Shown in pieces: positions 3,477-60,382 of a stretch of 64,000 bases of DNA; the stretch's first letter is position 1, and the number at the start of each line of letters is the position of its first letter. Both the position numbers and the translations under genes were made by a program. Source of the stretch: Owenia fusiformis (Eukaryota; Annelida; Polychaeta; Sabellida; Oweniidae); contig CAIIXF020000001.1 of the NCBI GenBank assembly GCA_903813345.2, positions 46,829,885 to 46,893,884 on the forward strand. The letters run 5' to 3'. The notes under the pieces are model-generated. The model saw nothing but the letters and a program-made list of their open reading frames with translations, did no database searches and was not told the origin of the DNA.

Positions 3477-6400
3477 CTGAAACACATGAAATCAATAAAG
3501 AAACATGCCTAGGGAAAATGTCGGTTTAAGAATTGTCTTTTTGCAGTCTTCGACCTGCTTTGAATGGTCAGGTGCTCCAGAACTTCGAGCATACAAATTC
3601 TGTTTTTTGTATGCTTTAAGAACTCGTTTGCTGTGACTCATCATGAGATATCATGGCCTTCTATTACCTTCTTTCTGATGATTATCAGAATGGGTGTGAC
3701 TGGTTGATTAGGGAATTTCACCCAACCCCAGTCCGTTTTACCATATTTTTCGTGACGGGATGAAAGCCTTAAGAAAAAACAAGTATATAATTTGACGGGT
3801 TCAAATTAATGCAATTCTAATCACTCCAGTCTTCGATACAAAAACTCCCTTGAATGAAAAGATCTGAATGAGAAGCAACTGCGAACTTTTATAAATGTCA
3901 AGAAACTATTTTGTCAAGTTCTTTAGAACTATTTATTCTTGAATGTACGCGAATTAGTCTCTCGATGACATCACTTTCAAGCTTGGCGTGAGTGGGGTGT
4001 GGCAGTTTGGTCAGATATGACATATTTTTATCAGGCAATATCGGAACTCGCTTTCCTGGATTTCCGCTTATTTTCCTGGTATGTTTAAACAAATAACATA
4101 TATTACAGCTACACTAGCATTTTACGTAGAGTTAAGGTCGAAAAGATGCACACGAAAAAAACTGTGCAAGATCAGGGTTTAAATTAGATGCAAACTATAC
4201 CAAATTCAAATGCATTGAACCCGTTCGACATTACACATACCCATATAGGATAAATCACTTACTCGGACAGGTTTTCAGCTGCACTTCGTCTGCCATGCCT
4301 ACACCTAAGGTAAAAGGAGCTCCAAAATATGCCCAATGGCAAGTCATATAAATGAGGCTATATTGAGCTACCTGGCAGTTACTATCCAAAAAGCACTTGT
4401 TCAGGCAGTCATATTTATTAAGTGATTGGGCTGCTTTGTTGACCGAAGACACGTCGTTGCTTGTTAACGACCCCATTCTGCATTGGCCTTAAAGCAGAAA
4501 GCAGTCAAACACTTCAAATAAAACATGTTTTTTAGGAAAAATATGCAATATTATATATTTCATACTGTTGAGGTGAATACCTAGGCCAGTAGATCTTCAA
4601 TATCTCATCAACAAAAAATGCTAGAATATCTTTGTTCTCGTGGTCGTCACGTTCTACAATTAGAACGAGTGAAAACGTACTAACGACGAGCTGGACGTAC
4701 TACGAACGGAACCGTCGTACTTCAATCCTACTAGGGACGTTTTAACAATGAGTTGAACAGCTGTCTGAGGACGTGTTTAGAACGAGGTAGAACTAATATT
4801 CCAAACGGGTTTAAACTGATTAAGAACGTATTTAACACTGCTTATGAACGAGTTAGCAAAAATATAGCTATCACACCAAACAAGTTGCCACTGCGTTCTC
4901 CAAAACTGGTTTTAAACTGTGTGCGAACGGAATGAAAGAAGCTGCAACTTTCTAAGGTCTATTTACGAACTTTATGAACGTTCTCAGACGGAAATGTGAT
5001 TTCAGAATTTTGAATTGATTCAAAATTCGATGGCGACCATGCCGTTCTGTAATCAGGTCATGTTGACCTTCTAGACTAAGGGACGCGTTCTACTACGTTG
5101 CACACCGACGTGGTGCGACCTGAACGAACTGCGAACGAGATGGACGTATTGGAGACTGTTTAAGAACGAAGAAGCTAATTATTTCAGACATATTTCCCGA
5201 CCACAGCCAGATTGAGCCCGTTTTACGACGTTTTCGTAGGACTGGCAAGAACGGGTAAGAACTAGTTTGGTGTGATAGGGGGGTTAGAGAAGATTCATTG
5301 ACTAGACTTTATTTGTATTTTCAATAAAAAGAGATTAATTTACATATATTTGGGAGAACTGACACGTAAACGTGTACGTAATACTTTGACCCTCAAGAAT
5401 TGTTGTCCACCTCTCAATTGGTTGAAATGGGAACTTTTTTACAACTATTTCTTACACCGTCATACTCAATCCGTCAAATAAAGGCCAGTGAGGTGAAAAT
5501 AGTCCATAAGAGGGGACCATAAATTACACGTTTCACGTACACGTTCTTCAAAACAGTGCACCCCTAATAATATAATACGTGCAGAAAAGTCATCAGAGCA
5601 TCAGATATGTTGATTTTAACATTTTAAACTAATTTGGTTATGTTATCCAATGCATTAGCAGAGAACCTGAGCAGAGCATGGAACGTTTAGAGTGAACTAT
5701 AAATGGGGTACTACTTACTATCTGTAAGCTCACACACGTAGCGCATCTGTGATGAACATGGTGCTGCGTACCATAACAAATCCTGGTCGATGTTAACACA
5801 ATAACTGGCCAAGCCAGGCTCATTCACTCCCCAGTTTAGATATCCCGGAGATGAAGCATCGTTCCAAGCAAGTGCACTGTGTACACTAGGATCGTTAGAT
5901 AGGCCAATCCACATATTTCTGAATGAGAATTATCTAACAAATAATTTCATTACAACAATGACAATTACCAAATTATTGTAATCCGTATCTTTAGTATGGC
6001 AATATGGTTTCAAAAGTGACATCATAGCACACAATAACCCCGACTGTGTCAAAATGGCAAATGAAACAAGAACGTGAGCAATCTAGGACGTGAAGATCAA
6101 ATGAGAATTGGGTGAATCCTTAATCTTTGTTTCTTTCAAGAGATCAACATGTGGCAATACATGCAATACAAAATCATATTTTGAAAATAGAAAAATTGCA
6201 TTTATGTTGTTAATTCATATTTGGTGTACTAATAAGCCAGCAAAAATTAGTTTTGTAAATAATTAAATGACGAAATTCAACTGAAATTATTTTACTCTTT
6301 GGAAAAATTAGTTTTGTAAGTAATAAACGAAGTAATTTAACTGAAACAACTCTATGGAAATCGCACAAGTAAGTTTTGAAGATTGAAATAGCTACAGTTA

Positions 6401-12435: not shown

Positions 12436-12540
12436 CTGGCAATGATTAGTATGAAACAAGGCATTAACATGCAAAATACCACCACCTTTCATTTGTTACA
12501 GACGCCAAACGCTGAGCGCCGAACACCGTCCATACAAAAT
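12436..12540. repeat. Dispersed repeat, inverted copy at 24010-24115
   Basis: GGCATTAACATGCAAA, TTTGTTACAGACGC and the CCGAACACCGTCCA region match the reverse complement of 24010-24115 with moderate divergence over about 95 bp. A dispersed repeat of unknown family. Confidence 0.5.
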
Positions 12541-28700: not shown

Positions 28701-31700
28701 TTTATAGTTTCACCATATTCCATCAGAGCAACGCTTGTAAATCAAATAATTATACCGTAAATAGTTATGTAACCTACTTGTACTCTTGCCTCTGTAAGCT
28801 TTGTTCTCTGCGCCAACTCCTCTCTTGTGAAGATATCGGGGTAATGTGTCCTCTCGAACGCCTTTTCCAAGACCTCGATCTGCTCTGCCGTAAATGTTGT
28901 ACGACTCCGGCGTTGCTTTCTTTCTAGCTTTAGTCCAGGCTCACACTCGGTATCAGAATCAACGTCAGAATCTGCAGTTAAAATCAAAAGTGGTTGAACT
29001 TTTTTGTCTTTCTTTGTTTGGGAAGAACCATTTACTCATGATGATGGAGCAGTGGTATAGATGACAATATCATCTGTGAATTTATATATGGGAATCCAGG
29101 GGCGGATCTGGGAATCAACAGGGGGGGGGGGGGGCAAATTTCAGGTCTGAGAGAAAACTTGAAAAATTTTGGGCCCCTAAAACCAAAAAGTGGGCCCGAA
29201 TTGTGAAATTTTGAGGCCCACTTTCTTCCCTAAAACTAAAAAATAAGGCCTTAAAAAGCCCAAGGGAGGGGGGGGGGCTGGCTTTTAAAAAAGCAAAATA
29301 GAAAGTGTGAGAGGAATACATCCATCCTGGTCTAAAGGTAACTTCAATTCATCCCATCATGAGCTGGGACAATGAAGCCCGATTTTGAAGAATCATTATT
29401 GCTACATATAATATTTGTACCTATGTCTGGATTCCAGTTTACGATAGAATAAACTCAATTTTCTTAACTGCCATACAAATTGCAAAACATTAATTCACTG
29501 TTAATATTTCATTGAAATCATTGTGTCATAGTTTGTATTCTGTCTTACATGAAATATACAAAAACGATTTACAAAAAAAGTTTTTACAAGTTCATATCCT
29601 TATTTTATATTTTGCAATTCTAATCAAAATTAAGAATGCACTTGGTATTTTCTTTCTCAGGAACTAAACCATTACTATGTTTAATTCATTTCACCTAAAC
29701 ATATTATTTATTAAAAACAACACATCACAATCCTTGGGCTTTGTATGTGTACAGCCCAGACAGTTGTATCAAAAAAATTATAACATTACATATATTTATA
29801 GTCCGGTTAAAATAGAAAAGTCGCCAGCGACGAACAGAAATATTCAAGTCAATAAAGTTGAAATTGACAACGTAATAATGTATTTCAACTTCATAGTTCC
29901 CTTGGGTCAATTGGCAATTCAATTTTTGACAATTGTAATAATGTATACAAGCCATTCATTATTAATATTTTGAATAAAATAATATCATCATACGGTAAGT
30001 TTGATTTCATTATTGAGCTGAGAATAAGCCTAATCGGATCGCGTATCCAGCAAAACGATTTTACGCAATCGAATGTATAAATGTATTAACCATTTAACAA
30101 TAACTTACTGGTCCTTACTTCATAACTCGAGGTTTCAGAAACGGACAACTACGATTGTGAACAATACTCTAGACATAAGATACGACTTTTGGATAAAACT
30201 GATTCATAATCATGCGAGAGACTCTGCAGATTTACAATTCTGATTTAAGAAAGAAATGACAAGTGAAGAGTCATTGTAAAATTCCTGAAATTATTTTTCC
30301 TCGTAAAATGAAGACTTTAATCAGAAAATGTTGACTTGATATCATACATTGAGGGCTTGATGTTCTTATTAATTTCTGTGAATTTTTAATGCATGCTTAC
30401 ATGGTGGGATAAGCAACAAGGAGGGAGCTCCAGTCAATTCCTCAGGTTGAACATTGAAATTTAATGCGGCATAACTAACATATTCCGGGCCATATTAATT
30501 CATAACTGAATGAGAATAAAATAACAAACTATAGCAAATGCTAGAAAGCCAAACCTAATACTTCGTTTAATTTCACGATAATGTGATTCATTTGTAAATG
30601 TGCATTAAACATTCTTTTTTCAAAGATTACTGTAGTTCATATACATAATTGGGTTGACAAAAATATAATTGTGAAACCTACACAATGATCTGGAAAGAAA
30701 AGAATAATCAGTTTGACTGGAGTTAATAAAAATGCAATAAAAGACTTTTGAAAAGGAAACCGTGAAAGTCAATGAAAAGCGCATCTCATTGTGAATGCGG
30801 CATATGAAGTCAATTTCGTTTTTATATACTGTTAACTGGACCGAACTTTGATGCATTCACAAGGAGCCTATCATCACTAATTGTCTGCCATCATAAATAT
30901 GAATAATGTTTTTAAAGAAATCAAATACATAGGTTTTGAAAGTAGTGATATCTAAAGACAACGCCCTGTCAATGAAACATCTTAATTAATTTAGAAGAGA
31001 TGAAACTACAATAGCTCAACGCATTGTTCAAGAAGAACACTTAGGAGTTGGGACCAATGAAACATATGCTCGTTGAAACAATTAAATTAAAGTCATGAAC
31101 ACGCTTATTTGCACTGCTCAATAAAATAATTTTATTAAAATGTAAAGGGTGTCAAAGAGTAAATGAATTTGAGGGATCCCTGTTGCTAACAAGTCATTAC
31201 AGACTAAAATGGACTTCTGCCTATTTATAGTCAGTTCATATTTATCACTTGGTGCTTTAATGTCATTGTCCGGTAATGATATTTTTATTAGCTTCATGTT
31301 TTGTCGGTATATTCAATTTTCTGACCACAGATACGTCCCTAATACTGACATCGTCTGGAAATTTGTCTCGATCTCTAGATAACTAAACATGGATATATAA
31401 ATCAAGTGACACTTACCCAATTCTGTTTTTTCACTACGTAGAATGCCATCAATTGAATGATCTGGGGTTATTGTAACGTCGTTCTCGTCACTCGCGTTGC
31501 CGTCATCTTCAACGCTCCTGTGACGACTTCTGAGGACGCGGCTGATGGAGCTCACACTAGGGACGTTCATCTTGTCACAAACTCCGTCTTTCAGAAGACG
31601 GTCACGTATCTCCCAGCTAAAGATACCCGGATTTTCCTTCTTGTAGTCTTCAATCTTACGCTCAACTTGCGGTGTTGCAACTCTAGGTTTGCTCCCACCG

Positions 31701-34700
31701 ATCACCCCCGGGCGAATGCTCCCCGTCTCTTGATATCGTTGGAGTATCTTGCTGACGCAACCGTGCGAGACCCTCAGTTGTCTGCTGATGACGCAAGGAC
31801 GAACGCCCTGGGACGCCATTTCAACAATCTTGAGGCGAATGTGGTTGGGAAGAGGTCGTCCATTGATGAAGACACCACCTAGCTGATTTACCCGGCCCTG
31901 TCCTAAAACAATTTAGAAATATTTGCTACTAAAAACAATAACTAAATAATAATCTTGTTTACATACAACCTAGTAAATATATTTTTCTGTTCCATTTTGA
32001 GCATTTTCTAGTTGTAATAATTTAAGGAAAGTAATAAACCTTGCGTTTCACTAAAATACATCTTGAGAGCTTGACAATTATGTGACCAAATAGTTTGCAA
32101 ACCAAGACATTAATTTATTTATGTGAAATAGAACAAAAAGAATAACAAGACAAGACAATTACCCAAACATCCATATAATATTACAATGGCTTCGACACCA
32201 GAACGAAATAAGTGTCAAGCATTTTAATTTCAATTTCTTATGGTTCATTTTTGTCAAAAGAAACACGCTGGAGAGTTGTCCAGAGGGAAACCAGTAAATA
32301 GCAAAGAGATTGCATTTACCAGGATGCAAGTATGTAACACTACAATAGAATTCTAAGTAACTTATACAGCAATCAATTAGCATAATCAATTAACCTGGGT
32401 AATGAATATGCTTATACTGGGAGCAAGCGCTGACTTTCCAGTGCTTCTCCACCGTGTCAATGTTTACTTTCTGTGTTTTTGTTAATTGGATTACCCTATT
32501 CTCGATGGTCTATATTTATGTATTATATTTGTAAATTGCCCCCCCCCCTTGAACTCTAATCTGTAAAATGATGTCTTTCAGCCCGATGTTGAACTATTCA
32601 ATCATTGGTAAAAATATTTTTCTAAACTTGGAGCTAATATCACAGTTTCAAAGATGGAGTGTCCGTACATCGCTTTTCATACCTTTCTTATGTCCAACAC
32701 AATCACAGTCAGTATGAAAAAATGGAAAATGTGAACAAGTTTTCAATCTGTACATATGCATATAAGAATGGAGCCCATCGCTACAATTATGCTACAGTTA
32801 TGTTATAAACTTCGTCTTTCAGAAGACAGTCTCGTATCACCCAGCTAAAGATACCCGGATTTTCCTTCTTGTAGTCTTCAATCTTACGCTCAACTTGCGT
32901 AAAAACTACATTTTTGGAAATCATAATGTGCCAACAAGTTCATCAATTAGACATTTGACAGTCTTGTAAGTGCAAGAAAAACAATTAGAATACAAGTTAC
33001 CTTTGATGAGCGCTTCTGTTTCAATATTCACGTAATCCATACTGTATCAGTGGTGAGATGAAACTCAATCGAATTTTTATTCTGAACTCCTCCAAAGCGA
33101 ACTTGGTACTTATCTTCCTGAAACTTTTTGATCGACTGCAAGACATGAGCTTGATACGTTTATTTTGGTCAAATTACAACACGTGGTCTGTCAATGCATA
33201 ATGAATTAGACAATGGGAAAATGAGCATAGCCGATCTTAGGTGGTAATTAGCAAGCCTTATCAGGATCACCATCAGGTGACCGTATAAAATGCCTATTTG
33301 TTCTTCCATTCTTCCCTTTGATGACCCTCTTAAGCTCTCTTATCCCACTAATATCCCTACTGCACGGGACACTACATAAAATTGGTCGTAAAATCCTAAA
33401 AATGACATGGTGCCTCTGAGATTACTTCAAACCATACCATGGGAATTTTTCAATCTCGTTGAACATATAATTTTAATTTTTCAGTTAAAATTAATTTGGT
33501 GTACCACAAGCATATAAAACAAAACAATAACACAGTTGATCGTGAAGCTAAGGACATTTTAGAGACCAAATATAGAATATTTCCTACACATGCATTGACC
33601 GCAATCTAGGCGAGACGGATTTTCCCCAGATATGCCCCTTTATTTAAAAATGAAGATCAACTTGTCCATGGTCAACAAAAAGTGGAGTCACAAGGTTCCT
33701 GTAATATACGTTTGTTTTAGTATTCACCTAACCTTTTTTTGTATTTTCAAATATTTCAAAGAGGTGATCTTAAATCCATGTAACAATCCAAACCTACATA
33801 GAAATATGAAAGGTAATGGGGGAAGGGGGGGGGGGGGGGGACGTGATTTGATACTTTTTTGATAATTGATCACAAATGTTAGGAACATGGACTTTTTGGG
33901 TAGAGTAGATACATCTAGGAAATTACAATAAATCAGAGACTTTCTAAATACAATTTATATCACACAGTTTAGGGTAATTATTAGATAAGCCTTTTCTCAA
34001 TTTATTTTGAACACGATTAACATTTATTGTGTTATCACATGTAAATATTTGGTTGGATTTCCTTCACTTCTCAGTGTCGATGTGAGTTTATTTTGCTTTA
34101 TTTTTCAAATGTTACCCAATGTGCTTTTTTCATTGCACAAGGTTCTGCACAATCAAAAGCATTGAACAAATTACATAACATATTTTAGTTGCTGTAATGA
34201 TATATGACACGGTGATACGGTGCAGTAAAAGTGTCACTAATTTGTAAATGACAGCAAATGAATTTGCATATTTTAGAAACATGTCATGAAAATTGACTGA
34301 CGCAAATGCAGTACAATTAACATTTACAATACAATACAATACAATAAAATACTATAATACATTCAGAATATTGAAAACCCCTTCAAACCATTTTATTTAA
34401 AATTATTAAGCCAACATGCCGATTATTTGTTTAAACATTTTAAGTTGTAGTTTTGCTTCGAGGGCCTGCACCTCTCCCCCAAATTATCTGGTTATAAGGT
34501 TTCATTTTTGTAGGTATCTTTTTGAGATTGGGGGGGGGGGGGTTATAATTACATAAGGGCGTTATGGAAGACTATCTGTCATTTTGCTTTGACACAACTC
34601 GATTTATTCCGTTATTTCCAGGACCAGAAAATGAGAATAACATAAAAAATAATTTATTTAAGTTCCAAAAATGAACTAATACGAAATTGTAAACCGTGAT

Positions 34701-38383: not shown

Positions 38384-40460
38384 TAATCTACCTATAACTA
38401 GTTAGTATAGGTAAAAATTACAGCAACTTGAACATGCATGTTGATCTAGAAACCTGACTGATATACGAACATAATTATTGACGTATGTTATGAATCCCAG
38501 TGACAGTTAAATCCTGCACAACCACCTCACCACCTCACGTTGTGAATTATACACACGGGTTTTCATGTTTTCAGGATCACTGCTAAAGCTGAAGAATTCA
38601 TCAAATCGGAATTGACGTTCAAATCAATTAAATCGTTGAATTTTGATTTGTCCAGCTCCCGTGGTGACATCTTAATTAGTCGATGTATTTGCTATAATAC
38701 TTGCAATCTGTCACTTGAAGAATAAAAACATGCATGCATATAGAGAAACTAAATTGTCAAGGATCAAAATATATGATATATTTAAATTTACACTTTGTCT
38801 TGACTCTAAATTACTACGCGGCTCTGCGTATATGTAGCTACGCCCATTTTGCAGTTTGACATATATTTGTAAGCCCCAATTTTTCGGGACCAAACTTAGG
38901 GGTCCAAACTTAACGTCCGCCAGTGAGACAGTGCAAGGCTAGGTTTTGCACTTAAAACACATACTCAGTAAAAACGAACTCTCATTCTATAAAAAGAAAT
39001 TGGCAATATCACATCAAAATCCTCCATTCATTTGTCACCAAATGTTACTTTCTACCTCGAAATGAAAGAAAAATCCTTCAAAAAGGCGTATGTAAGAAGA
39101 AATAATCTTGATTTACGTCATTCGAGAATTAGACAATTCAATCAAAATGGTATAATTGAAATTTATATGTAAAATTATACCTAGAAATGTGGTTTTAAAA
39201 AATGTTTGTCAACTTTAAAAATTTAATTTCCATGAAAACGGGCCACTAAAACTGATGAATATTCAAGTTTAGGGAAACTTTCTAATACCCTGCCACGTTA
39301 TTTGCCCCGAATTAGCCATCTGGTGGTGAAACTGGTAACTACCTACTCGCATTTGGGTTACTGTCCCGTTTTCAGACATCAAGAGATACGTACAGAGTTG
39401 TTAATATAATAGTGTATGAGACTCAAACAACAAGACCAAAGCTACTCCTGAAGTCATCTTATCAACAAGAAAAAAAACTGTACTCAGAGGATAGTATGGG
39501 ACTCTGCCAGCCTCTTGTTTTCAGGGTAGTCCCGTTACTTGCATTGACTGAGTGAGAGAGCCTCTTATCCTTCTCTACACACCACCTCCACTGGTTAAGT
39601 GGATAGGAAGAAGCCACTCTGCTAGATCTTGTCAGCCGCCCTGGCAAAATGTGCCATACACATTCCAAATTGCGACATCTATATGAATAAAGAGAAAAAC
39701 TCCATGTCATGTACGTTTTTACTTTAGTCATAGATGTCGTCTTTGCTCATACCTTTTATTCAAAGACAAGCAATCCTGCAATAGAGTCAATTGTCAATTT
39801 TCAATGCATATGGATAAATAGATGACAGCATGTGTGTCGGTAGGGATCGTAGATACCAGCATTTAGCCATTTACTGACAAAAGTCAATTTCTTGGATACT
39901 TACAAATCGATTATGTAAAACGGCTCCCATTTGGTATACAATTAGATGATCTTGTTGACATACCGATTGTGGATTAATCCTAAAATTCTAATTCTTAAAA
40001 GAATCAATTTTTAAAAATTTCTTTAAACATCGGTCAATGGGATTTAGTCTGACTTTTTCAGAAAAAATCCTCGGAAATTGAACAAAATGAAATAACTGTA
40101 CGTGTAAATTAAAGTTCTTCTGGAAAACAATCACGCATGAAACTCAAATATGTCATACTTTAACATCGAACAAAGTGTAAGTCCTTCGTGGTTAAATATG
40201 CAAATCTTAAAATCCCATTAAAATGAGATTTCAGCGAGATTTCGAAGCTGTATAGCAAATGGTTAATTGAATGTTGAGTTGGAACGTCTTTTTCATTAAA
40301 CATTAATGTTATATCCGCATCACCTTCATTGTACACTGTATACATGTATCTCCTTTTCAGAAAGGACAACAAAGATATACATACATGTAACATGGGTAAG
40401 GGGAGGGGGGAGGGGGGGGGGCGATTGCTCTGACATTTTAAAATCGGCAATGGAAATCAA

Positions 40461-41331
40461 TGGTACTGTTTGGAAGGTTGTTCAAGAATTTACTACCCTG
40501 CTTGCAGAGTCTAGTTAAACTGAAGACGAAGCTCTCTTTTAAGAAGTGAACTCAAACGAATGCAAAGGGTAAGAATTTACCTTCTTCCATGGCGGGTATA
40601 GTAAAAAGTTCCCTTTAACTTGAATTACACGAGATTCCGTTTTAGTGGTTCAATTTCCATATAACCCTAAATGTATCTATAGTTATGCAAATTGAAATAT
40701 TTCCACTAAAAGAGAATATTATCTATCCAATGCACTTTTGTGATTTTGTAACATGGGGTCTATGGGGAATCAACCTGAACTAGAAGTCACATTTTCAAAA
40801 AAAAATAATTTTCAAAGTTGATTAACAATTTTCGAAACCATATTTCTAGATGTACTTTTACGTGTAGATTTCATGAAATGGCATGAACTTTACACATGGT
40901 ACTGTTTGGAAGGTTGTTCAAGAATTTACTACCCTGCTTGCAGAGTCTAGTTAAACTGAAGACGAAGCTCTCTTTTAAGAAGTGAAGTCAAACGAATGCA
41001 AAGGGTAAGAATTTACCTTCTTCCATGGCGGGTATAGTAAAAAGTTCCCTTTAACTTGAATTACACGAGATTCCGATTTAGTGGTTCAATTTCCATATAA
41101 CCCTAAATGTATCTATAGTTATGCAAATTGAAATATTTCCACTAAAAGAGAATATTATCTATCCAATGCACTTTTGTGATTTTGTAACATGGGGTCTATG
41201 GGGAATCAACCTGAACTAGAAGTCACATTTTCAAAAAAATTAATTTTCAAAGTTGATTAACAATTTTCGAAACCATATTTCTAGATGTACTTTTACGTGT
41301 AGATTTCATGAAATGGCATGAACTTTACACA
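40461..41331. repeat. Two-copy tandem duplication, 436-bp unit
   Basis: The block from TGGTACTGTTTGGAAGG at 40461 recurs at 40897 and runs to about 41331. I see only a few substitutions and a one-base length difference between copies. Each copy includes one 78-bp element (TACCCTGCTTGCAGAGTCTA) and TTCTTCCATGGCGGGTATAG. Confidence 0.9.
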
Positions 41332-41337
41332 TATATA

Positions 41338-46200: not shown

Positions 46201-48191
46201 GAAGGTATTAAATGTTTTGGCATGATAAAGAATCTCTAAGTAAATTTGCACGCGTAATTTTAGCACTTTTGGCACACTTTGGTCAATCTTTTGGCACACT
46301 TTTGGCATGCTTTAGAAAGTCTTTGGGATTCAAAGTTTGATTAACGTCTTTATTTTAGGGTTGCATGTATTAAAAACTACAATGGCGTTTTATCCTTTAA
46401 ATGCTACCATCCCGTTAAAATATCCACACGCTTGAAATGATATTTTGTGATATGCCCTAGTGCTTTCACAATTAATCAATAACATGATTCCTAGTGTGAG
46501 ATTCGTACCAAATACCAAATTACACCCAATCTAATTTGTGGGGTATTTCCATCTGATCTGACTTGATTTCGGGATATCTCAAAATCTAAGCTTACAATGT
46601 GACCTGATATGCCGTTTATATACACCAGAACACCATGGGGCTAAAAGGTGTTAATCTATGGATATCCAAATGCCCTTTCCATTTTATTAGAGTGGTCTTT
46701 CAAAATGACAAACAACAGTGATTGCTTACACATTTAGTTGCATGATCTTTTTTCTTGATAATAATTTCCTAATTCAAAAAACAGAACCTGAAAATAAGTA
46801 CTGAAATGCGAATTTAGTAAGCGTTGAATCTATGATGGGAACTAAAGGGATGGTCAATTAAACTCTTTCAGCAATGTTCGCAGTTTTAGTATCATAATAG
46901 AGTGTTAAACCTTAGAGTACCATGACCCGAAACCATTTAAACTACAACTACTTACTAAATAAAACAATCCGAATGATAAGATTGATAAACCACTTAAGTT
47001 AGTGAATGATCCGCATTAAGCTTCATTGCAAGTTCTTGTTGTTCCCAATGTACAGTTAAAGAGATATAAGAAAATATTTCCTAGAAATGTACCTCGTTAA
47101 ACGATCTTTAGTATGGTTTTTTAACCTTTTAAGAGTGTTTCGCGTTTTTTAGAAAGAGCTTCATTTTCGATAGTGATTGCTACTTTGCCGTGATTTTCCG
47201 TATTTAAGAGGATGTATTATGTCTGATTCAAATTGATTCGTCAAAAATCAGAAAAGTTTCTACATTTTGTAAAATAAGTTAGGCTTGGCTGTCGTTACAT
47301 TTCTCAAGTATCATTCGTTTCATATCAAACACAATTTGAACGTTTTTTGTTTAGTTTATAGAGTAAAGGTCGTCCAAACTATTTGTTGTAAATAGTTCAA
47401 CAAGTGCGCTATTTTTAAAGAATTTTAAGTTTCCCTGAATCAAAATAATCGGCGAATCTTACGGAGTCGAAGTCTACCAAAGTGTACTTTAATTTCGCTT
47501 TTTTCACATGCATTCCACACGCCATACATATACTCCTGGGCCGTGGGACCAACGCATCCAAAAAGGGACCTTATTTATGGAAAGGCATCAATTGTCTTAA
47601 TGGCCAATGACAAAGGGCAATAAAAGTTTCATTGTAACCTGCAGTTGCTTGTTTTCATCATGACATAAGCAAGCAAACATGGGTAAACTTGTAACGTTTA
47701 TCATCATTTTTATCTCTATTATTATTGTTTTTGACAATTATGTTTTGTATCTATGGTTTGGATTATAACCACAGGCGCCATTGAAGTCAGTAACATCTTA
47801 ATCTGAAGGCCTAATCACTTTCGAGTCTTAACAGTTTTCAGATTACATTCCGTAAACTTTGAATTTTTTGTTTGTAATTCAAGATAAGCGTCACAATAAC
47901 AAAGCAATTTGATATCAAGTATTAAGTATTTTCACATACACAGTAAATGATATTTAAAATATTGTTATCATTTTCAAATTAATGATGCAATCAGGCGATG
48001 ACGGCTTTTGCATTTAGATGTGGTCTAACATAATTGTCAGATTACACTTAGGCTAGAATTCAATTTATTTGGTCCTAAAATGACAGATTCGACAAAATAT
48101 TGTTGAAGGGATCAATGTCAGTAAAAAAGCGAAATTTTCAGGGTCATCGGTTAAACAGAAAATCGATGTATTTTATCCAACTAGTACTAAT

Positions 48192-48212
48192 GTACACTCC
48201 CCTCCATAAGTT
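48192..48212 (+). mobile_element. Isolated terminus of family A (Tc1/mariner-like) element next to the satellite
   Basis: After TGTA the sequence reads CACTCCCCTCCATAAGTTTT and continues GCAACA, matching the terminal repeat of 26752-27626. The other end is not found to the right of the array, so the 50-bp array abuts a solo end. Confidence 0.65.
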
Positions 48213-48233
48213 TTGCAACACGAGGTTTACATT

Positions 48234-50412
48234 GGATATAGCATATCACAGCCTGACAATGTTAGTTTAATGTCCATGATCCCTAGGATAGCATATCACA
48301 GCCTAACAATGTTTTGTTAATGTCCATGATCCCTCGGATAGCATATCACAGCCTGACAATGTTTTGTTAATGTCCATGATCCCTCGGATAGCATATCACA
48401 GCCTGACAATGTTTTGTTAATGTCCATGATCCCTCGGATAGCATATCACAGCCTGACAATGTTTTGTTAATGTCCATGATCCCTCGGATAGCATATCACA
48501 GTCTGTCAATGCTAGGTTAATGTCCATGATCCCTCGGATAGCATATCACAGCCTGGCAATGTTTGGTTAATGTCCATGATCCCTCGGATAGCATATCACA
48601 ACGTGACAATGTTTGGTTAATGTCCATGATCCCTCGGATAGCATATCACAACCTGACAATGCTAGGTTAATGTCCATGATCCCTCGGATAGCATATCACA
48701 ACCTGACAATGCTAGGTTAATGTCCATGATCCCTCGGATAGCATATCACAACGTGACAATGTTTGGTTAATGTCCATGATCCCTCGGATAGCATATCACA
48801 ACGTGACAATGTTTGGTTAATGTCCATGATCCCTCGGATAGCATATCACAGCCTGACAATGTTTTGTTAATGTCCATGATCCCTAGGATAGCATATCACA
48901 ACGTGACAATGTTTGGTTAATGTCCATGATCCCTCGGATAGCATATCACAACGTGACAATGTTTGGTTAATGTCCATGATCCCTCGGATAGCACATATCA
49001 CAACCTGACAATGCTAGGTTAATGTCCATGATCCCTCGGATAGCATATCACAACGTGACAATGTTTGGTTAATTTCCATGATCCCTCGGATAGCATATCA
49101 CAACGTGACAATGTTTGGTTAATGTCCATGATCCCTCGGATAGCATATCACAACGTGACAATGTTTGGTTAATGTCCATGATCCCTCGGATAGCATATCA
49201 CAACGTGACAATGTTTGGTTAATGTCCATGATCCCTCGGATAGCACATATCACAACCTGACAATGCTAGGTTAATGTCCATGATCCCTCGGATAGCATAT
49301 CACAACGTGACAATGTTTGGTTAATGTCCATGATCCCTCGGATAGCATATCACAACGTGACAATGTTTGGTTAATGTCCATGATCCCTCGGATAGCATAT
49401 CACAACGTGACAATGTTTGGTTAATGTCCATGATCCCTCGGATAGCATATCACAACGTGACAATGTTTGGTTAATGTCCATGATCCCTCGGATAGCATAT
49501 CACAACGTGACAATGTTTGGTTAATGTCCATGATCCCTCGGATAGCACATATCACAACCTGACAATGCTAGGTTAATGTCCATGATCCCTCGGATAGCAT
49601 ATCACAACGTGACAATGTTTGGTTAATGTCCATGATCCCTCGGATAGCATATCACAACGTGACAATGTTTGGTTAATGTCCATGATCCCTCGGATAGCAT
49701 ATCACAACGTGACAATGTTTGGTTAATGTCCATGATCCCTCGGATAGCATATCACAGCCTGACAATGTTTGGTTAATGTCCATGATCCCTCGGATAGCAT
49801 ATCACAACCTGACAATGCTAGGTTAATGTCCATGATCCCTCGGATAGCATATCACAACGTGACAATGTTTGGTTAATGTCCATGATCCCTCGGATAGCAT
49901 ATCACAACGTGACAATGTTTAGTTAATGTCCATGATCCCTCGGATAGCATATCACAGCCTGACAATGTTTTGTTAATGTCCATGATCCCTAGGATAGCAT
50001 ATCACAACGTGACAATGTTTGGTTAATGTCCATGATCCCTCGGATAGCATATCACAACGTGACAATGTTTGGTTAATGTCCATGATCCCTCGGATAGCAT
50101 ATCACAGCCTGATAATGCTAGGTTAATGTCCATGATCCCTCGGATAGCATATCACAACGTGACAATGTTTGGTTAATGTCCATGATCCCTCGGATAGCAT
50201 ATCACAACGTGACAATGTTTGGTTAATCTCCATGATCCCTCGGATAGCATATCACAGCCTGACAATGTTTGGTTAATGTCCATGATCCCTCGGATAGCAT
50301 ATCACAACGTAACAATGTTTGGTTAATGTCCATGATCCCTCGGATAGCATATCACAACCTGACAATGTTTGGTTAATGTCCATGATCCCTCGGATAGCAT
50401 ATCACAGCCTGA
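48234..50412. repeat. Satellite array: about 44 copies of a 50-bp unit
   Basis: The unit is GGATAGCATATCACAACGTG, then ACAATGTTTGGTTAATGTCC and ATGATCCCTC, exactly 50 bp and highly uniform. Three main variants alternate: GCCTGACAATGTTTTG, ACGTGACAATGTTTGG and ACCTGACAATGCTAGG. Three units carry an extra CA (GCACATATCACA at 48991, 49243, 49545), spaced five and six units apart, which shows higher-order amplification. No terminal inverted repeats or coding frame. Confidence 0.97.
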
Positions 50413-58075: not shown

Positions 58076-58673
58076 TAATATGATATCCCATGATGCACAA
58101 GTGAGGTACAGGCAAAAATGTTGACCGCTAATTGACCAATCAGATGCGAGTATTTACACTGAGGTACTAACAATAAAACCTGTATTGTCCTATCACTTGG
58201 TTGATCTGAACTCCCAAACTGAACACATTTTCGGTCCATTCTGGCTCCCTTGTTAAAAAACCTTGAAATGTGAACACATCTCAATTTTGACAGTTAACAA
58301 TCATATTTAAAATAAATTACATAGACTATTCATTTTGAATAATGTTTTAAACTAGTTTATCGCTATGGATATCATTATAGAGTCCAAACAATGCAGAATA
58401 AAATATCATTGTAATTTGCAAATCGTAGTCAATAAAGCTATAACTACTTTCAAATGTGCTCATATATTTTCAATATATTTTAAACCCGCAATAAGAACCT
58501 TGAAATGTGAACATCTCTTTATCAGAACGCTCGTAGTCGTTCCCAGCGGCGTTCGGATTAGACCGGTTTAAGTGTAGGAGTAATTACTCTGGCTATAGAC
58601 ATTTCTCATCTCATCTAATTGTCAGTACTTCATGGTTAATACCTAGCGTGGCTGATTGCTGCCATATATGTCG

Positions 58674-59565
58674 AATATGATGTCAAGAGTGTCCTGATTG
58701 ATGTCTACTATGTCCTGTTTAATACCCAATGTATCCTATTCGATGCCTAGTGTGTCCTGTTTGATGCCTACTGTGTCCTGTTTGATGCAGAGTGTGTCCT
58801 GTTTGTTGCCTACTTTGTCCTGTTTGATGCCTACTGTTTCCTCTGGTGCCCATTGTGTCCTGGCTGATTTCTAGTATGTCCTGTTTATGCCTAGTGTGTC
58901 CTGTTTGTTGCCTAGTTTGTCCTGTTTGATGCCTACTGTGTCCTATGTGGTGCCGTGTGTCCTGGTTGATTTCTAGTATGTCCTGTTTAATGCCTCGTGT
59001 GTCCTGTTTGATGCCTAGTGTGTCCTGTATGATGCATAGTGTGTCCTGTTTGATGCCTAGTGTGTCCTGTTTAATGCCTCGTGTGTCCTGTTTGATGCCT
59101 AGTGTGTCCTGTATGATGCATAGTGTGTCCTGTTTGATGCCTAGTGTGTCCTGTTTGATGTCTAGTGTGTCCTGTTTGATGTCTACTATGTCATGTTTGA
59201 TGCAGAGTGTGTCCTGTTTGTTGCCTACTTTGTCCTGTTTGATGCCTACTGTTTCCTCTGGTGCCCATTGTGTCCTGGCTGATTTCTAGTATGTCCTGTT
59301 TATGCCTAGTGTGTCCTGTTTGATACTTAGTGTAACCTGGTTGATGCCAAGTGTTAATTCTGTTTTATGCCCATTGTATCCTGTTTGATGCTTAGGGTGT
59401 CCTGGCTGCTGCCTAGTGTGACCTCTTTTATGCCTAGTATGCTCTGTTTGATGCCTAGTGTGTCTTGTTTGATGTCCAGTGTTACCTCTTTGATGCCTAA
59501 TGTGTCCTGTTTGATGACTAGTGCATCCTGTTTGATACCCAGGGTGCCCTGGTTGATCCATATTG
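58674..59565. repeat. Minisatellite: about 40 copies of a 21-bp unit
   Basis: The unit is TGTCCTGTTTGATGCCTAGT plus G, 21 bp, variably diverged (CTACT, CAGAG, CTCG forms). Since 21 is a multiple of three the array stays open and would encode a heptad SCLMPSV, which is a by-product of the repeat. A sub-block of about 120 bp (58787-58906) recurs at 59201-59320. Confidence 0.93.
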
Positions 59566-60382
59566 TTACTTAGTTACTACTAGTTGATGCTTAGTATGTC
59601 TTTTTGTTGATGCCGTATGTGTTCTTCTTGTAGAAACCTATACCTGACATATATACGTTATGCCCCAAACCAATTTTGATGTTCCGTAAAATGAATTAAA
59701 TCAAATAAAAATAACCTATGGAGACTATCAATAGATGTCAGATTGAGTTTGTTCGTCTTCATTAACTTATGTTTCACATGAAAATCACATACATGATACA
59801 TGGTTATATTACATAATAATACAGTATGCAACACAGAATTATGAAGAAACAAACTAATTTGAATATGAGATGCAGAAGTGCATTCTCAAATTAAATTAGA
59901 GTTAAACCTGAATAAGTTGAAGGGCATTGGTTCTGCCAAAAGTGTTCCACTTGTGAGGTGTTCCAGTTACAGAAGTAATGATGTCACTGGGATATAAAGA
60001 GCAGAGAGTTTTTTCATCCTCCATTTTCTTGATCATCTAGCTGTGCTGACTGAGTATCAAATTAATCCTCTTTGATTTTGAAGTCATGTGGTCGTCTTGG
60101 TGTATCATTATTAGTATGATTCTACTTCCATGGAAGACACCATTAATAATCTGATTGAAAGAAACTGACCTTCTTATCTTGCCTTCTCATGATTATGCCA
60201 TTTTAGTCCCAGGCATTTTAATCTTGGTTCTAACTCGAATTCTCTATAATTTGGTATAATACTGGATGTCAAAATGTGTGGTATTGTAGCCCAACTCATT
60301 AGCCTAAATAAGTTTGAAAATGTTATTTTCCACAAAATAGATTTTTTCGCTGGAAAATGACGTTATTTTCCCGGGAAAATAT

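Follow-up and report, generated by a model that had tools for sequence, protein, structure and literature searches.

A partial copy of the Pax3/7 paired-box exon 1.2 kb upstream of that exon in Owenia fusiformis, probably left by local break repair

Introduction

How does a fragment of a paired-box exon come to stand a second time, nearly unchanged and on the same strand, in the DNA upstream of that exon, and does it work there as a second exon? The question arises in a stretch of 64,000 nucleotides from the annelid Owenia fusiformis (the window; GC content 36%), which holds a Pax3/7 gene on its minus strand. An earlier note on this DNA had drawn attention to a near-identical internal fragment of the Pax3/7 exon at 32803-32899 and had considered for it a template switch, the seed of an alternative exon, an assembly artefact and a source of circular RNA. 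The fragment is real and was placed correctly to within two bases (the ungapped alignment gives 32801-32899). We propose that it is probably a local, repair-mediated duplication from the exon, non-coding and losing its reading frame.

Materials and Methods

The copy with its edges was searched against the genome (498 Mb in 525 contigs) at the DNA level; in this search very common words are skipped and the best candidates alone are scored, so that uniqueness in it is not absolute. As controls we took twenty 10-kb regions centred on homeobox exons, namely every fourth row, from 4 to 80, of the 139 homeobox matches listed, with row 33 replacing row 32, which lies in contig C262. Dispersed pairs in the controls were matches of at least 50 bp and at least 85% identity in blastn with the low-complexity filter on (E ≤1e-8). 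A separate scan collected exact matches of at least 22 nt that were at most 5 kb apart, not periodic and present in at most two copies in the sample. Splice sites were scored by a simple consensus count, a weak test in which the real acceptor of the paired-box exon itself ranks only in the top 31%.

Results

The Pax3/7 gene and the partial copy of its paired-box exon

The paired-box exon (486 nt), bordered by an acceptor (ttttag/GACAGG) and a donor (TTGG/GTAAGT), encodes a full paired domain (PF00292, E 2.8e-73), for which the best solved chain is 1pdn_C, 'PRD PAIRED'. It begins after an acceptor-like AG with the remainder of a split codon (phase determined by hand), which indicates that some exon should lie upstream; no Pax3/7 exon upstream of 31417-31902 was located. 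A homeodomain exon downstream of it is presumed to belong to the same gene (Table 1).

The copy agrees with the middle of the exon (nt 232-330) at 93 of 99 positions (94%, ungapped), lies on the same strand, minus, at a spacing of 1,228 bp, and spans 33 residues of the paired domain (residues 77-109 of the exon reading). In the sense direction its first 60 nt, from 32899 down to 32840, are identical to the exon. About 2e-25 matches of a 60-mer are expected in a random 64-kb sequence of the window's composition, which excludes chance for this block. When the copy plus its edges was used as query, the genome search scored both of its two candidates, and these were the copy itself and the Pax3/7 exon; another Pax gene as donor was therefore rejected. 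Likewise, the 2,041 bp around the copy (31950-33990) matched themselves and the exon alone, within the limits of the search, which leaves a mobile element carrying a gene fragment unsupported.

Local alignment of the 150 nt flanking copy and exon on each side revealed no homology (the scores were equalled or beaten by 100% and 70% of 300 shuffles), and blastn of 2 kb around the copy against 1.8 kb around the exon detected none beyond the copy itself; what else matched there was a 501-bp overlap between the two query ranges and a few short stretches with E ≥0.13. The copy is a sharply bounded, non-tandem patch in apparently single-copy DNA.

Table 1. Position and basis of the features discussed (window positions, except for the tandem paired exons, which are numbered within their own region)
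Feature	Position	Strand	Basis
Homeodomain exon, positions 1-46 of PF00046	28775..28912	-	profile match G000:C1:46858659-46858796, window position calculated
Paired-box exon of Pax3/7	31417..31902	-	inferred ends (splice motifs, reading frame)
Donor stretch inside paired-box exon	31573..31671	-	ungapped alignment
In-frame stop TAA, four codons beyond copy	32787..32789	-	translation; coordinates counted by hand
Left edge, plus strand: CTACA (half of 5-nt direct repeat) and GTTA before copy	32792..32800	.	sequence
Partial copy (acceptor), 99 nt	32801..32899	-	ungapped alignment, genome search
Diverged part of copy, all six mismatches	32801..32839	-	alignment
60-nt block identical to exon	32840..32899	-	alignment, exact-match scan
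Right edge, plus strand: TAAAAA followed by CTACA (second half of repeat)	32900..32910	.	sequence
Tandem paired exons in L003 (G000:C248:19500-25000)	4060-4257, 4298-4495, 4534-4731		sequence and profile match

Edges of the copy

Both edges carry short motifs. On the plus strand an A5 run starts one base past the right edge (A5 or T5 within 2 nt of an edge is found in about 4% of random 99-nt window segments), and the two halves of the repeat CTACA flank the copy (about 6% of such segments have a 5-nt repeat no more than 6 nt from each edge). These motifs could reflect retroposition of an antisense transcript, or filler together with a short target duplication. Just outside the aligned ends of copy and exon no microhomology was visible by eye.

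Substitutions and reading frame

All six mismatches fall within the last 39 sense bases of the copy. Read from exon to copy they change E to V, R to R (synonymous), R to C, G to E, C to Y and D to N; the earlier note had E to V, R to C and C to Y right and fell short of G to E and D to N. It was also correct in reporting that an in-frame stop follows (TAA, Table 1), the sense frame being open across the copy itself. Its reading of the substitutions as decay is supported: five of the six are replacements, where about 81% of the possible single changes are replacement or stop (about 19% silent). One silent change in six fits no selection on the protein, and no purifying selection on the copy's protein was detected, a comparison that has low power with so few changes.

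An identical run of at least 60 nt has, under random placement of the mismatches, a probability of 0.02 anywhere in the copy and of 0.006 at an end (post hoc). This uneven placement could be due to chance, to a conversion tract acquired later, or to error-prone synthesis at one end.

At the five replaced sites the residue of the copy is present in none of three paralogous paired exons on contig C248 (see below), and the residue of the Pax3/7 exon recurs there for E and C in 3/3, for D in 2/3, for R in 1/3 and for G in 0/3 (all by eye). From these residues, and from the contrast between a full paired-box exon and a copy of 33 residues, we infer that the direction was from the exon to the upstream DNA.

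How common are such pairs?

Nine dispersed pairs were found in the controls, in 6 of the 20 regions, and none touches the central homeobox exon. By genome search the pair in L020 is a three-unit tandem array and that in L008 belongs to a dispersed family with at least 46 genome matches. Six more, judged by eye, comprise two pairs inside a single minisatellite of L016, one pair inside a minisatellite of L024, two pairs among related units in L013 and one pair in L015 similar to a repeat found at positions 12474 and 24035 of the window; the ninth is inverted, in L016. Thus for none of the nine (two assessed by genome search, six by eye) was it shown that the pair has just two copies, non-tandem and on the same strand.

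The exact-match scan of controls and window yielded five same-strand pairs more than 500 bp apart, of 22, 22, 26, 27 and 60 nt, the longest being the Pax3/7 pair. At more than 300 bp apart the controls have nine exact same-strand pairs (22-28 nt, in 6/20 regions). Tandem pairs included, the controls gave 24 same-strand pairs versus one opposite-strand pair. Long pairs of the Pax3/7 kind are not abundant here, and the controls do not prove such events frequent. Rates of repair-mediated duplications (RDs) per Mb of mobile-element sequence are 0.52-0.65 in primates and 0.18-0.26 in other mammals, as stated in the sections of the paper by Pace et al. drawn on here (PMC2671141); even at those rates none would be expected in 200 kb of control DNA.

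Discussion

Comparison with known systems

The doublets described by Thomas and colleagues in 2004 are said to be exact matches of 25-100 bp that favour the same strand and lie about 1 kb apart. The Pax3/7 pair agrees with that definition (60 exact nucleotides, same strand, 1,228 bp), the exact block here being part of a 99-nt match.

Proximal RD copies have a mean length of 162 and a median length of 147 bp, and the separation of donor and copy averages 1.2 kb, according to the parts used here of the study by Pace, Sen, Batzer and Feschotte (2009) (PMC2671141). The donor is within 5 kb for 824 of 1,136 duplicons and within 3 kb for 753; four exons, two of them complete and two partial, are named among the conserved donors, and in one case the copy of an exon, with about 94% identity, lies in opposite orientation in an intron of the gene it came from (same sections, PMC2671141). 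The authors add there that RDs and the doublets of Thomas et al. have many attributes in common, and they caution that using mobile elements as markers may have produced the peak near 1,200 bp (PMC2671141), a warning that makes the agreement in distance with the Pax3/7 pair weaker than it appears.

In the terms by which RDs are delimited, the Pax3/7 copy has its donor less than 5 kb away on the same chromosome, falls with 99 aligned bp into the size range (at least 50 and up to 619 bp), and is sharp-ended, non-tandem and free of flank homology. RDs are further delimited by the lack of a polyA or polyT tract of at least 5 at an end; at the Pax3/7 copy an A5 lies one base beyond the right edge of the plus strand. 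Microhomology, a deletion or filler at the breakpoints is another mark of RDs, and of these no microhomology was seen by eye outside the aligned ends of the Pax3/7 pair. RDs were catalogued in vertebrates inside transposable elements with the empty sites checked, whereas the Pax3/7 copy stands in apparently unique DNA of an invertebrate genome. Tandem exon duplication with mutually exclusive splicing likewise places an exon copy in neighbouring non-coding DNA of the same gene; unlike mutually exclusive exons, the Pax3/7 copy is partial, lacks the splice sites of the exon it came from and is rich in replacements.

Origin of the copy

We infer templated break repair because the length, the distance and the sharp ends fit proximal RDs and the common strand fits doublets. 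The event would have started upstream of the paired-box exon, where the DNA suffered a double-strand break or a replication fork stalled. Repair would then have copied about 100 bp from the exon 1.2 kb off, in the same orientation, by ectopic annealing (synthesis-dependent strand annealing or microhomology-mediated template switching), and the copied patch would have been joined to the other end of the break. The expected outcome is a sharply bounded, same-strand, non-tandem, non-coding copy, which would since have been decaying. Of the origins considered in the earlier note, a template switch or similar repair event is the one supported by the sharp ends, the flanks without homology and the two places in the genome. 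Several points speak against break repair: no microhomology is visible just outside the aligned ends, simple uniform decay does not predict a 60-nt identical block at one end, the 5-nt repeat and the A5 at the edges hint at retroposition, no comparable long two-copy pair was demonstrated in the control DNA (0 of 9), and the fit in distance is weakened by the possible artefact in the RD catalogue.

The identical block is open to other readings. That the copy is still exchanging sequence with the exon, the 60 nt being a recent gene-conversion tract and the pair an active direct repeat, we regard as rather unlikely. Were it so, recombination across the pair would delete about 1.2 kb, including the acceptor and the first half of the exon, and the pair would keep supplying the population with null alleles of Pax3/7. 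The concentration of identity in one block at an end would also be expected if the copy were the remnant of a larger, older tandem exon duplication kept locally similar by gene conversion, but the 150-nt flanks and the blastn comparison of the surrounding 2 kb and 1.8 kb show no further homology, and we hold such a remnant to be quite improbable. It is unlikely, too, that LINE-type machinery retroposed a fragment of a transcript antisense to Pax3/7, as the TAAAAA after the copy on the plus strand and the CTACA near both edges might suggest. Repeat and A run are very short and were noticed post hoc; the tail is on the strand antisense to the gene, where a transcript is unproven; and the donor is 1.2 kb off, a setting in which polyA/T was recorded at 0 of 39 proximal RD breakpoints examined, a TSD entry at 6/39 and filler with a TSD entry at 3/39 (the last two summed from the paper's table; sections of PMC2671141 used here).

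The frame that stays open across the copy, and a GTAG just upstream that offers an AG in the phase of the real acceptor (by hand), would suit an alternative or poison exon of Pax3/7, whether already working or incipient. The splice-like signals are, however, ordinary among the GT and AG sites of the window, even if the test is weak: 67% of the AG sites match or exceed the pyrimidine score of that AG, and the best GT sites in the copy score 6/9 (15% of the GT sites are as good) against 7/9 (3%) for the real donor. In addition, five of the six substitutions are replacements, the copy holds no more than 33 residues of the domain, and it does not resemble the tandem paired exons on C248, which are full exons bordered by CAG and GT and have changed mostly at third positions. 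An alternative exon, or the seed of one, is accordingly most improbable. An assembly or haplotype artefact we consider highly improbable: the copy rests on one assembly, but six positions distinguish it from the exon, its ends are sharp, the DNA around it appears unique and belongs to a 62-Mb contig, and the search gave no further match among the 525 contigs. Direct repeats cannot base-pair with one another in RNA, so that the pair is not expected to be a source of circular RNA.

The sequence tests of splice sites, frame and substitutions gave no convincing sign of function in the copy, and the RNA fold of the copy strand has a z of -2.1, with 9 of 200 shuffles as good. The copy is most likely an ordinary, inert, decaying remnant and not a second working exon.

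By itself the copy leaves the knowledge of Pax3/7 unchanged. If repair is the right explanation, it adds another case, outside vertebrates, of break repair scattering short pieces of exons nearby. Near-identical fragments of exons in introns can also mislead gene prediction and short-read mapping, here with 60 identical bases of a conserved domain.

A triplet of tandem paired exons in a Pax2/5/8-like gene

That Pax domains are single-copy, as the earlier note had assumed, is partly right: the genome has 12 exon-level PF00292 matches (two of them the Pax3/7 paired-box exon and its copy), and another gene contains a triplet of paired exons. On contig C248 one N-terminal paired exon is followed by three tandem C-terminal paired exons of 198 nt each (Table 1), in a gene whose sequence features suggest that it is Pax2/5/8-like. 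The three exons are intact, have CAG and GT borders and compatible phase, and are separated by 40 and 38 nt. Their identity is 67-71% at the DNA level and 69-82% at the protein level, and their differences by codon position (18/10/37, 14/11/37 and 10/6/41) are mostly at the third. The triplet thus has the look of retained, selected exon copies, unlike the Pax3/7 copy. Introns of 38-40 nt may be too short for splicing between neighbours, which would make the three candidates for mutually exclusive use, with a possible effect on DNA binding. Among the papers listed in the literature searches (15 of 210 and 12 of 52 matches), no title or abstract opening reports a Pax2/5/8 exon triplet, and the available parts of PMC4488758, PMC10208574 and PMC5333810 contain no mention of one; in the portion of PMC5333810 used here, Pax2/5/8 isoforms in Annelida are said to have 'remained elusive'.

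Other loci and repeats

At G000:C262:14791-17163, four homeodomain matches share one open frame of 1,717 codons, which presumably resembles a ZFHX-type gene. Seven closely spaced PF00046 matches with similar scores (41-45 bits) at G000:C5:39469706-39483441 point either to genes that have expanded locally or to a mobile element, part of which is homeodomain-like. Fox domains gave 38 exon-level matches in the genome, and PMC9539403 reports 35 Fox genes. In the window, about 48138-50412 is a large minisatellite with a 50-bp unit and at least 40 overlapping register copies, and 40460-41332 is a tandem duplication whose copies are spaced about 436 bp apart and are 97-99% identical. A 21-bp minisatellite at 58589-59650 consists of units of the GIKQDTL type, its minus strand being open for 188 codons (58719-59285).
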